From Pseudoselenomonas ruminantium (GTDB lineage: Bacteria > Bacillota > Negativicutes > Selenomonadales > Selenomonadaceae), in assembly GCF_900142515.1 (NCBI RefSeq), contig NZ_FRBC01000007.1, forward strand, positions 1 through 64,000: a DNA stretch of 64,000 bases, in the 5' to 3' direction. Below the pieces are notes generated by a model. It was given only the letters and a program-made list of their open reading frames with translations. It searched no databases and was not told the DNA's origin. Both the position numbers and the translations under genes were made by a program. Below are positions 3,368-41,208 of the stretch, piece by piece (the first letter of the stretch is position 1; every line of letters begins with the position of its first letter).

Positions 3368-4174
3368 ATGTTAATCAAAATCGACCATGATTTCCACGAG
3401 CATCTGACGGAAACGGAGAAAAAGGTCATTGGCTTTATCAATATGAATGCGGAGAAGATTTCCTCCATGTCCATCAGTGATGTGGCGGAGGCAACCTATT
3501 CTTCTCCGGCCACTGTTTCCCGCACCATCAAGAAATGCGGCATCTCAGGCTTTGCAGAATTGCGGTATATGATTACCCAGAAAACCGTCGTACATAAGGA
3601 CAGCATTCAAGTCAATGAGATTTTCAACAAGAGTCTGATGGAAGTGACACAGACCATTGAACAGCTCAGCATTGAGACCATTCTGGCTGTGGTCCGGGAG
3701 ATCCGGCAGGCCAAGCGCATCTATCTGCTTTCCCGCGGCCTTACGGAACATGTGGCCGATGAATTTGCCTTGAAATTGCAGCTGCAGGGCTATAATGTCT
3801 TTGCCAACAGTGATCCGTCCATCATGCAGGATATGACGCGGCGGGTGAAGAATCAGGAACTCGTGATTATCTTCTCCCTGTCGGGCAAGACTCCGGAACT
3901 CTTAACTGCCGCCGAAAATGCGTCATCCCTGGGTGCCCGTATCATCACGATCACCTGCGGCGCTCCGGATACCCCGCTGGCTCGCATCGCCCACCTCACC
4001 GCCTATGGTTTCAAGCACAGCCATGTGTCCATCAAGAACGTAGACGCCACCTCCCGCCTGCCCATCTACGTCATCAGCCGCATCATCATCGACTATCTGA
4101 CCAAACAGCAGGAAGAAGAACGCGAAAAAGCCGCTCAAAAAGAGGCGGCTTATCGCAGGGAACACTATTTTTAA
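3368..4174 (+). CDS. RpiR-family transcriptional regulator
   Basis: The 268-residue protein has an N-terminal HTH_6 domain (about 1-80, with SISDVAEATYSSPATVSRTI as recognition region) and a C-terminal SIS sugar-phosphate binding domain (about 120-245, with YLLSRGLTEH and IIFSLSGKTPELL). RpiR proteins sense phosphosugars and can repress or activate. It is transcribed away from lacABFG and lies between the two lac units, which makes it the best candidate for the regulon, possibly sensing galactose-6-phosphate or tagatose-6-phosphate. The tail is lysine- and glutamate-rich. Confidence 0.88.
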   Translation: MLIKIDHDFHEHLTETEKKVIGFINMNAEKISSMSISDVAEATYSSPATVSRTIKKCGISGFAELRYMITQKTVVHKDSIQVNEIFNKSLMEVTQTIEQLSIETILAVVREIRQAKRIYLLSRGLTEHVADEFALKLQLQGYNVFANSDPSIMQDMTRRVKNQELVIIFSLSGKTPELLTAAENASSLGARIITITCGAPDTPLARIAHLTAYGFKHSHVSIKNVDATSRLPIYVISRIIIDYLTKQQEEEREKAAQKEAAYRREHYF

Positions 4175-4186
4175 GTAAGTACGTGC

Positions 4187-4359
4187 TGCAGACGGGGGCA
4201 TGTTTTGTGGACTTCGCTAAATGTCTGGCAAGATAATAGAGCATCTCGTTGTTACCCGCGCCGGTCACCACGGCGCATTGACATCGTAATGTATTGTTTA
4301 TGCACCTCGCCAGCCAGCATAGCAATCGCTACGTTCCACAAAACACGCCCCCGTCTGCA
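4187..4359 (-). repeat. Palindromic structured element, copy A1
   Basis: A 173-bp element bounded by 25-base inverted arms (4187-4211 and 4335-4359, 24 of 25 matching). Read on the minus strand the single mismatch becomes a G-U pair. The inside holds a hairpin GCGCCG-TGGTGAC-CGGCGC followed near the end by AGACATTTAGCG, both also in copy A2. Short reading frames through it are not preserved between copies, so I treat it as non-coding. It lies just after the RpiR-type gene. Confidence 0.75.
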
Positions 4360-4399
4360 AGCTGATTTATCATGCCTTTGCACAATCACGTTCTACCTT

Positions 4400-4571
4400 G
4401 GCGCTGGCGCTTGCTTTTTGGCCAGAGCGCACTGCCGAAGGCTGGCTCGTCATACGAAAGGACGGGAGGCAAAGCTGAAAGACGCGACGTGGTGACCGGA
4501 GCATGCGACTAAGAAAACGGCACTGTCATACGAGACATTTGCGCGGCGGCCAAAAAGCAAGTGCCAGCGCC
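4400..4571 (+). repeat. Palindromic structured element, copy A2
   Basis: A 172-bp element with 24-base arms (4400-4423 and 4548-4571, one mismatch that is G-U on the plus strand). Its inner part GCGACGTGGTGACCGGAGC matches 17 of 19 bases of copy A1 in opposite orientation, and AGACATTTGCG lies near its end. Together A1 and A2 form a head-to-head pair with a 40-bp gap, filling the 432-bp space between the convergent RpiR-type gene and lacC. I see nothing else in that space. Confidence 0.75.
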
Positions 4572-4606
4572 TGCACGCAAGCACCCGCGCCTAGCATGCA
4601 CTAACA

Positions 4607-5536
4607 TCAGGCAATCTTCTCGATGGATATCTCGGCAAGCAGCTTCTCCACCACGCCTTTACGTACGAACCCGCTCTCCGCCTCCAGTGCATTAGCCGTC
4701 CCGCAGGCGGCTCCTAACCGCAGTGTTTCTTCGATTGGCAAGTTACGCGACAGGCCTGCCGCAATCCCTGCCACATAGGAATCTCCCGAGCCCACAGGAT
4801 TCTGGCACTCAATCTCCGGCACGGTGACGCGGTAAATTTCATCATTCACGCCGACCAGTGAACCGCGGCTTCCCAGCGAAATCGCAGCCATCTCAATCCC
4901 TTCATCCATAAAGTGGCGAATCTCCCGCACCAAATCTTCCTCGCTGTGCAGGCGGTAGCCCCGCAGGGCTTCAATCTCATCCTGATTGGGCTTGATGAAA
5001 TCCGGCCGCGCCGCAATCCCTCTGGCCAGCAAGTCGCCGCTGGTATCGAGCAGGAATTTCCTGCCAGCCTCATGGGCTTCCTCAATCAGGGAGGCGTAAA
5101 AATCAACCGGCACCCCTCGGGGCACGCTGCCCGAGGCCACCACAATATCAGCTTTCCCTAAAAGCTCCGTGTATTTTTCACGGAACTTTTTTAATTCCTC
5201 CAGGCTCACTTCCGGTCCCGGCTCCAAGATTTCCGTCTGGGCACCATCCTCGGTAAGTATCGCCAGACAGGAACGGGTTTCCCCTGCCACGCCGACGAAA
5301 TCGCCGGTGATGCCATAATCATAGAGCCGGCCAGCCACGAATTCCCCGGTTTTGCCGCCAAGGAAGCCCGTCACCACCGTATCTTCCCCAAGGATGGTAT
5401 CCACGTTGGCCACATGGATGCCCTTACCGCCGGGAGTATTATCCACGGATTTGGCCCGGACGATCTTCCCCTTGGCAAAATCCACCAGCTCATAGCGCTT
5501 ATCCAAGGAGGCATTGAGATTTATCACGAGTATCAT
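4607..5536 (-). CDS. lacC: Tagatose-6-phosphate kinase (PfkB family)
   Basis: Phosphorylates tagatose-6-phosphate to tagatose-1,6-bisphosphate with ATP. The 309 residues start MILVINLNASLDKRYEL and show PfkB signatures: the N-terminal DNTPGGKGIHVANV and the C-terminal NPVGSGDSYVAGIAAGL with the catalytic base in GSGD. Length and start fit LacC/1-phosphofructokinase. Encoded 29 bp after gatY, whose product uses its product. 1-phosphofructokinase activity cannot be excluded from sequence, but the context supports LacC. Confidence 0.87.
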   Translation of the reverse strand: MILVINLNASLDKRYELVDFAKGKIVRAKSVDNTPGGKGIHVANVDTILGEDTVVTGFLGGKTGEFVAGRLYDYGITGDFVGVAGETRSCLAILTEDGAQTEILEPGPEVSLEELKKFREKYTELLGKADIVVASGSVPRGVPVDFYASLIEEAHEAGRKFLLDTSGDLLARGIAARPDFIKPNQDEIEALRGYRLHSEEDLVREIRHFMDEGIEMAAISLGSRGSLVGVNDEIYRVTVPEIECQNPVGSGDSYVAGIAAGLSRNLPIEETLRLGAACGTANALEAESGFVRKGVVEKLLAEISIEKIA

Positions 5537-40607: not shown

Positions 40608-40664
40608 ATACGCAATTGATACGTTCGTGCTAAAAGTATTCCGTTCATACGCCATCAGCGGTTC

Positions 40665-40845
40665 ACGGGGGAGTGCTTTTTCTGTTTCCGCTAAACGACC
40701 CTCCCTGCAAGATTAGAGTTACTTAGCCGGATGCGCCGGGCAAGCCAGCGGCGCGTCTTTCAACGTGCTCTTTAGCTGCTGCCTGCGTCGGGCCGGTCTT
40801 CGCTGCGCTCAGACAGTCGCTCCTACAGAAAAAGCACTTCCCCGT
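40665..40845 (-). repeat. Palindromic structured element, copy B1
   Basis: A 181-bp element with 21-base arms (40665-40685 and 40825-40845, one mismatch). Read on the minus strand it contains GACTGTCTGAGCGCAGCG, a hairpin GCGCCG-(10)-CGGCGC, and GTCGTTTAGCG before the closing arm, the same order as copy B2. It is in the same orientation as copy A1. Confidence 0.75.
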
Positions 40846-40958
40846 TCGCCTCAAGCCACGATTTTGCCAATTGGCACGAATCGGTTATCCCGCGACAAGA
40901 ACATCGATGTGCTTGTAGCTTACAGCTAGAACATAGCAATATACACAAACGTAACTTT

Positions 40959-41155
40959 GGGTGGAGGTGGGGATGCTTTTTCGCCGACGGAACGACTGTC
41001 CGAACGAAGTGAGGACTGGCCCACAAACAGCATGTGCTGGACGCTTCGTTGACAGACGCGCCGCCGGCCTGCCCGGCGCCAAGTTGCTGGAAGTTGCGTA
41101 CTTTTGCTGGCGGGTCATTTAGTGGAGCGGCGAAAAAGTATTCCCACCTCCGCCC
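40959..41155 (+). repeat. Palindromic structured element, copy B2
   Basis: A 197-bp element with 28-base arms (40959-40986 and 41128-41155). All three arm mismatches are G-U pairs on the plus strand. It contains GACTGTCCGAACGAAGTG, a hairpin GCGCCG-(10)-CGGCGC and GTCATTTAGTGGA. With B1 it makes a head-to-head pair filling most of the 729-bp space between convergent ldh and sucD; the 113-bp gap between them holds a 12-base palindrome TGCCAATTGGCA and no gene that I can see. Confidence 0.78.
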
Positions 41156-41208
41156 CACTGCGCCGTAACAAACAGAGTTCAGGCGCGCACCAACAAACTG
41201 GCATGAAT

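Follow-up and report, generated by a model that had tools for sequence, protein, structure and literature searches.

Head-to-head pairs of folding modules in Selenomonas that probably belong to a MITE-like repeat family

Two loci, A and B, of the window (the whole stretch of 64,000 nucleotides from Pseudoselenomonas ruminantium analysed here, positions 1 to 64,000 of contig NZ_FRBC01000007.1) each carry a pair of self-complementary modules. Both loci are probably members of a mobile family of the Selenomonas group that is MITE-like and non-autonomous and is moved by an enzyme encoded elsewhere. The copies are dispersed, are present or absent at orthologous sites, covary at their paired positions, lie head-to-head and occur in opposite orientations at shared sites. 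Two traits of the family are unusual, namely that the arms of the modules drift freely yet pair, and that a site shared by two genomes can hold the element in opposite orientations. Elements of this make, built from paired folding modules, form a new and seemingly undescribed family of a kind already known; a literature search at the level of titles and abstract beginnings, with few subscription journals, returned no description of such a Selenomonas repeat.

Two pairs of modules and their relatives

Locus A is flanked by convergent genes for an RpiR/SIS regulator (end at 4174) and a PfkB kinase (start at 4607), and its two ends, compared by eye, resemble each other at 10 of 13 positions (Table 1). 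A sequence-only reading had described here two elements closed by inverted arms, in opposite orientations and 40 bp apart, with a common interior (17 of 19 bases) and a lone stem mismatch that is a G-U pair on the minus strand of A1 and the plus strand of A2. All of this is confirmed. The arms of A1 are 25 nt long and 96 % complementary, while those of A2 can be extended to 32 nt (4400-4431/4540-4571) at 88 % complementarity, with one mismatch in the outer 24 bp; the spacer occupies 4360-4399, the 19-nt core common to both modules is 89 % alike, and the sole mismatch of either main stem is G-U on the strands named. A1 and A2 rank first and second among the inverted repeats of the window (10-base seeds, loops below 260), and the arms of locus B rank fourth and seventh. 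Allowing up to three mismatches, the window contains the core pattern 2 times versus 0.18 expected, a number equalled by 1 of 100 shuffles. The predicted RNA fold of the A1 minus strand reaches -89.1 kcal/mol (z -8.2) and that of the A2 plus strand with its flanks -87.1 kcal/mol (z -3.1), and in both cases 0 of 200 shuffles folded as well.

Table 1. Features of loci A and B in the window
Feature	Position	Strand	Remarks
Locus A element	4175..4605	.	Ends GTAAGTACGTGCT / AGCATGCACTAAC, read by eye
Module A1	4187..4359	- (sense)	P1 arms 4187-4211 and 4335-4359; 153 bits, in the model's seed
P3 hairpin of A1	4258..4276	-	GCGCCGTGGTGACCGGCGC
Module A2	4400..4571	+ (sense)	P1 arms 4400-4423 and 4548-4571; 161.7 bits, in the model's seed
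P3 hairpin of A2	4484..4502	+	GCGACGTGGTGACCGGAGC; tandem G-A replaces G-C/C-G
Scar GCAAGCACCCGCGCC	4577..4591	+	Remnant 3' arm from an earlier A2 module, still whole in G006 (own A aligned with L233)
Locus B element	40612..41206	.	About 600 bp; limits set by eye; terminal inverted repeats at either end, both decayed
Module B1	40665..40845	-	E 2.5e-11, model built without B
Central near-palindrome CAAGAACATCGATGTGCTTG	40896..40915	.	Between B1 and B2; kept among copies
Module B2	40963..41151	+	E 5.4e-16, model built without B

Locus B is a second, distant pair of modules, located between convergent genes for a lactate/malate dehydrogenase and a succinyl-CoA-ligase-like protein. The model built from A-type modules alone recovers B1 and B2 in the predicted orientation. 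The B pair is contained in a dispersed element of about 605 bp, which the sequence-only reading had not noticed; with terminal inverted repeats on its two sides, the whole forms a large imperfect palindrome. A BLAST search of its own genome recovered, besides the locus itself, 11 nearly complete copies (87-92 % identical), a further one at 77 % and numerous partial copies, and copies occupy many contig ends of this assembly. Aligned in one orientation, the copies have the common ends TAAATTGCAGTTTGTTG...CAACAAACTGCAATTTA, whereas those of the window copy itself have decayed, and the terminal inverted repeat AATTGCAGTTTGTTG is found at either end of B copies. With at most two mismatches, the B ends occur at 53 places in the genome compared with 2 for a reversed control. 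Across all loci collected by then, 59 distinct stretches carried both ends within the searched length range of 450-720 bp, and 48 of them measure 595-616 bp. Locus B is thus multi-copy, below 1 kb, non-coding as judged from the ORF list, and provided with terminal inverted repeats, four of the properties by which MITEs are recognised. By DNA comparison it is found in 16 of 22 genomes of the home genus, its own included, one of the 16 being represented by a single match at 8e-4.

The relatives of locus A became visible only via related genomes. In its own genome, plain BLAST detected nothing beyond the locus and its own arms, and a 12-mer pattern from the core gave no excess (24 matches versus 34 in a reversed control). 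A-like modules are present elsewhere in many genomes of the home genus. The covariance model R1, built from 22 A-type modules, found at least 42 places in the genome itself (150 of 960 candidates scored), two of which are antisense to A1 and A2, leaving 40 sense modules. It also matched 17 of the 22 home-genus genomes and, at the level of the family, 22 of 189 genomes, which belong to 5 of 30 genera, one of the five being represented by a single weak match (8.8e-5). The same 22 genomes, none of them outside the home family, were recovered among 380 of the class; the repeats are present in many genomes and are not a peculiarity of this one. As the family and class searches used strict filters and scored 14 or 7 candidates per genome, weak members may have escaped and the copy numbers are minimum values. 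Four genera have modules with a recognisable core. A pattern search of a collection of named records returned at least 107 stretches, and all matches listed are titled Selenomonas ruminantium, for which reason the home genus is taken to be Selenomonas. No match was obtained among the viral contigs and phages searched, and a search of plasmids gave one matching record, pSR1 of S. ruminantium. This plasmid (L379, NC_002139) contains, at about 4406-4692, at least part of a B element, partly under a gene annotated as a HAMP-domain protein, and the record has a second matching place. In Rfam, searched with both loci (1601 and 751 bases), no family reached its gathering score and the matches at a permissive threshold were far below it. 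No known insertion sequence could be identified as the source either, and the repeats remain a family that is not recognised, as had been proposed.

Fold, covariation and strand

Each module of about 175 nt comprises a closing stem P1, a small hairpin P2 and an inner stem P4 around the hairpin P3. P1 (about 22-25 bp) is very variable in sequence among copies with its self-complementarity kept, and the arms can be grouped into 39 clusters that have no 13-mer in common. P3 is conserved, as is a CAUUU motif close to the 3' arm of the module. When the 22 A-type modules were aligned by MAFFT, with the consensus structure drawn from the same sequences, 99.4 % of P1 was paired, with both sides altered in 19 of 22 pairs; such double-sided changes also affected 4 of 7 pairs in P4, 1 of 7 in P3 and 0 of 2 in P2. 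The covariation score was 0.487, compared with 0.155 for shuffled sequences and at most 0.086 with the partners slid. Extending the analysis to 55 modules from several genera, in an alignment that was fitted to the model and is hence biased towards it, gave double-sided changes in 22/22 pairs of P1, 6/7 of P4, 2/7 of P3 and 1/2 of P2, and a score of 0.655 versus at most 0.112 after sliding; in both analyses the slide control is the only correction for kinship. The covariation expected of a folding element is therefore strong in P1 and P4, and since an inner helix covaries too, folding is kept beyond what simple DNA symmetry would entail, as the sequence-only reading had supposed. In P3, GC/GC is replaced by GA/GA in 9 of the 22 A-type modules, an alternative to Watson-Crick pairing which we take to be tandem sheared G-A.

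Which strand folds can be approached through the mismatches of the arms. Among 124 arm pairs in 39 clusters, collected by a rule giving equal treatment to G-U and A-C and leaving out modules with weak arms, 103 cells are G-U and 40 A-C (22.8 versus 16.5 when weighted by cluster). Counted by cluster, 16 lean towards G-U and 10 towards A-C (p = 0.33). An earlier set of 90 arm pairs, which omitted 7 of the 155 modules because their arms were weak, contained 29 G-U versus 21 A-C distinct mismatch contexts. The large majority of arm cells (2608/2797) are Watson-Crick pairs, which the arm finder favours. Module B1 has an A-C mismatch when read on the sense strand, and its antisense strand is predicted to fold about as well as the sense strand (z -4.1 versus -3.6), while for B2 the sense strand is ahead (z -6.1 versus -4.2). 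Taken together, the strand data lean towards the sense strand, a lean and not proof. The proposal that these are either RNAs or mobile palindromes under selection for folding stands as far as mobility and retained folding are concerned; the use of the G-U pairs as an argument for RNA is not supported in that form, given the cluster counts and the A-C mismatch of B1. Sigma-70 promoters are not in excess in locus A or in locus B, and a separate transcript of 170-200 nt is thus without support so far.

Insertion, order, orientation and setting

Presence and absence at the same site is best documented for locus A. In 14 other genomes with a match to its left flank, the site is occupied once (genome G006, 88 % identity), empty in 11 cases and unclear in 2; at the empty sites (7 recognised by BLAST matches to both flanks, 4 by eye) gene runs straight to gene. 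For locus B, joining the flanks to search for empty sites did not yield a clean junction. Among 58 copies no clear target-site duplication emerged, the strongest of the weak signals being full 3-bp matches at one offset (6 versus 1.4 expected) and full 2-bp matches at another (12 versus 5.0 expected). An autonomous element with B ends was not recognised in the own genome, where the few unpaired end matches (2 mismatches allowed) are little above the control.

In genome G002, four elements (L120-L123; C1 178300-182700, 391000-395400, 1679100-1683500 and 2763300-2767700) are split at the same place between their modules. L120 and L122 have received, in opposite orientations, an IS that encodes a DDE transposase of 491 aa, presumably IS1182-like. 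It was rejected as the autonomous partner because it has its own ends and is inserted both ways (2 of the 4 inserts checked). The window's own genome encodes three Y1 transposase domains (L376-L378; G000:C49:73265, C46:33492 and C29:349), stretches of 118-121 aa that all exceed the IS200/IS605 cut-off and score 29.9 bits for REP_Tyr_transpos, for which the cut-off is 80. They were dismissed as movers, no module being found in the stretches around the three genes.

The paired layout noted for A1 and A2, likened at the time to that of BIMEs, is general in the home genus: all 54 distinct pairs of neighbours within 450 bp, from 12 clusters, are head-to-head, and the remaining 2 pairs counted are tandem ones of another genus, g8. 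For this count one antisense match and overlapping duplicates were removed and six loci were added by hand; some copies are present under two records, and only identical sequences were dropped. Modules on the same strand 0.7-1.7 kb apart also exist (L265, L269, L271, L274), and no partner was found for some home-genus modules (L266-L268). In genus g8, modules stand alone, follow one another in direct tandem (a run of three in L353) or lie head-to-head (L354). Two loci of that genus (L356:1988-2329 and L357:1825-2157) display a tandem duplication of the core, the second copy of which scores as a partial module. A distant second class of module (L270:344-541, L273:416-613, L328:1825-2025 and L330:1799-2001) is the partner upstream of a normal module; it has arms and an inner GTTAAGAA.ATTTTTTTGCC / GGCAAAAAAA hairpin, and L270 and L273 end in CATTAGCGGA.

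At seven insertion sites shared with G006 or G002, chosen by eye (an eighth was unreadable), the element lies in opposite orientation in five, that of locus B in the window included, and in the same orientation in two. One of the seven sites combines flanks of 97 and 99 % identity with elements that, after flipping, reach 79.5 %. Such opposite orientations could be explained by flipping in place or by replacement at the same site. Between the own genome and G006, A1 is 97 % and A2 75 % alike, and 15 bases of an old 3' arm follow the own A2. In L262, L263 and L281, scars start, as judged by eye, within an older module, at its CATTT motif or close to it. From this contrast in divergence and from the arm scars, the modules seem to turn over by replacement. 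L281:686-1307 holds an A1 module nested in the still-matching arms of another, and an A2 module beside the remnants of an older one.

An intrinsic terminator adjoins an end of 24 of 56 B elements, compared with 43 of 814 intergenic and 82 of 4000 random positions, an excess that may partly reflect a preference for gene ends and includes sites that are not all independent. The 48 element sites comprise 14 between convergent genes, 26 between tandem genes, 3 between divergent genes and 5 within an ORF, the background of adjacent gene pairs at the same loci being 49 convergent, 148 tandem and 49 divergent; in both counts genes were defined by the longest ORF, an approach that proved unreliable at 16 loci (g8 and others, left out) and whose weakness the two counts share. 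If a repeat next to terminators reverses its orientation, read-through from one gene to the next could change.

Competing explanations and known systems

The MITE-like reading is drawn from the shared ends, dispersal, empty A sites, covariation, head-to-head order, flips, terminators and tandem G-A. What counts against it is that a clear target-site duplication, a parent element in the own genome, an Rfam match and an excess of promoters were not found, to which can be added the outcome of the strand test, the well-folding antisense strands of B, the 2/7 pairs of P3 and the modules that are single, in tandem or unpartnered. Mechanistically, an enzyme encoded elsewhere would move or flip the element and would require the modules to be folded as single strands, either as lagging-strand DNA or as RNA. 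Copies able to fold would then spread, template switching between the arms would help to maintain their perfection, and a benefit to the host would be unnecessary. A variant that we judge unlikely makes the module itself, and not the enclosing MITE, the mobile unit: a folded RNA or single-stranded DNA of about 175 nt would copy itself into or over older modules. Recognition by structure and not by sequence would leave the arms free to drift while pairing, and the copying would produce 3'-arm scars and nested copies such as those at 4577-4591 and in L262, L263 and L281. If correct, the module would represent a structure-addressed class of mobile element. About as doubtful is the idea that the modules are non-coding RNAs, made as transcripts of their own or as 3' ends of neighbouring mRNAs, with a cellular RNA function to which mobility is secondary. 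The covariation of P1 and P4 alongside conserved unpaired motifs would suit such RNAs, as would the tandem G-A of P3, a feature confined to the sense strand, the raw G-U excess and the scarcity of sites between divergent genes. However, the strand test is not significant at cluster level and the mismatch contexts differ little, the antisense strand of B1 folds at least as well as the sense strand, promoters are not enriched, each genome has many divergent copies, the A site is empty in most relatives checked, and a fixed gene neighbour was not noticed.

Near-perfect arms could also be a by-product of replication, template switching copying one arm onto the other and inverting the interior without any selection for folding. 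Two published accounts (PMC8794818, PMC8604942) describe both this homogenisation of inverted-repeat arms and inversion of the spacer or loop. The predominance of Watson-Crick cells, although favoured by the arm finder, and the opposite orientation at five of seven shared sites agree with it. Yet switching across P1 should invert the core of the module as well, which is at odds with the head-to-head order of all 54 home-genus pairs; the covariation of the short P4 arms, about 85 nt apart, is harder to explain in this way, and the core is still recognisable in four genera. As the full explanation we therefore regard template switching as rather unlikely, a little less so than the two preceding proposals, and it may contribute to arm upkeep here. 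The least probable of the alternatives, to which we give little credence, treats the modules as REP/BIME-type elements whose mover is a tyrosine transposase (Y1/RAYT) that recognises the hairpin in single-stranded DNA. The head-to-head layout, the extragenic position and the three Y1 genes of the genome are in its favour, but the Y1 domains score as IS200/IS605 and fall below the REP-associated cut-off, no module lies near their genes in the stretches examined, the modules are several-fold longer than REPs, no GTAG/CGTC tag is common to the four window modules, and B bears terminal inverted repeats. The family offers a natural setting in which to test how long hairpins persist, whether by selection of the folded strand or by copying from arm to arm, a question made testable by the several sites shared between genomes and the 39 arm clusters.

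Among known systems, REP/BIME elements likewise form intergenic palindromes in facing pairs (on REP elements see PMC3733652). The Selenomonas module is longer, about 175 nt (172-189 nt for the window modules) as opposed to 20-40 for a REP, and the Selenomonas genome is without a RAYT above the cut-off. GTAG is found in the first 40 nt of A1 and B1 and is absent from A2 and B2, while CGTC is found in none of the four. In the attC sites of integrons, too, the fold of a single strand outweighs sequence for recombination; their boxes GTTRRRY and RYYYAAC were sought in the four window modules and were found in none. Ypal, ERIC, Correia and Rickettsia palindromic elements are, like the modules, foldable repeats of 100-200 bp. 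They generally keep family-wide arm sequences, whereas the Selenomonas arms differ among copies and covary. ERIC and RPE are also named in a review (PMC10969869) that deals with bacterial MITEs such as QMITE2 of Coxiella, whose transcript is predicted to fold stably. By that review, bacterial MITEs and the Selenomonas elements are alike in being short, non-coding, dispersed and intergenic, with a stable predicted fold and, in B, terminal inverted repeats. The Selenomonas elements differ in that no clear target duplication is seen and no parent IS was found in the own genome, and they are set apart by their two structured modules, their hypervariable self-paired arms and their opposite orientations at shared sites.
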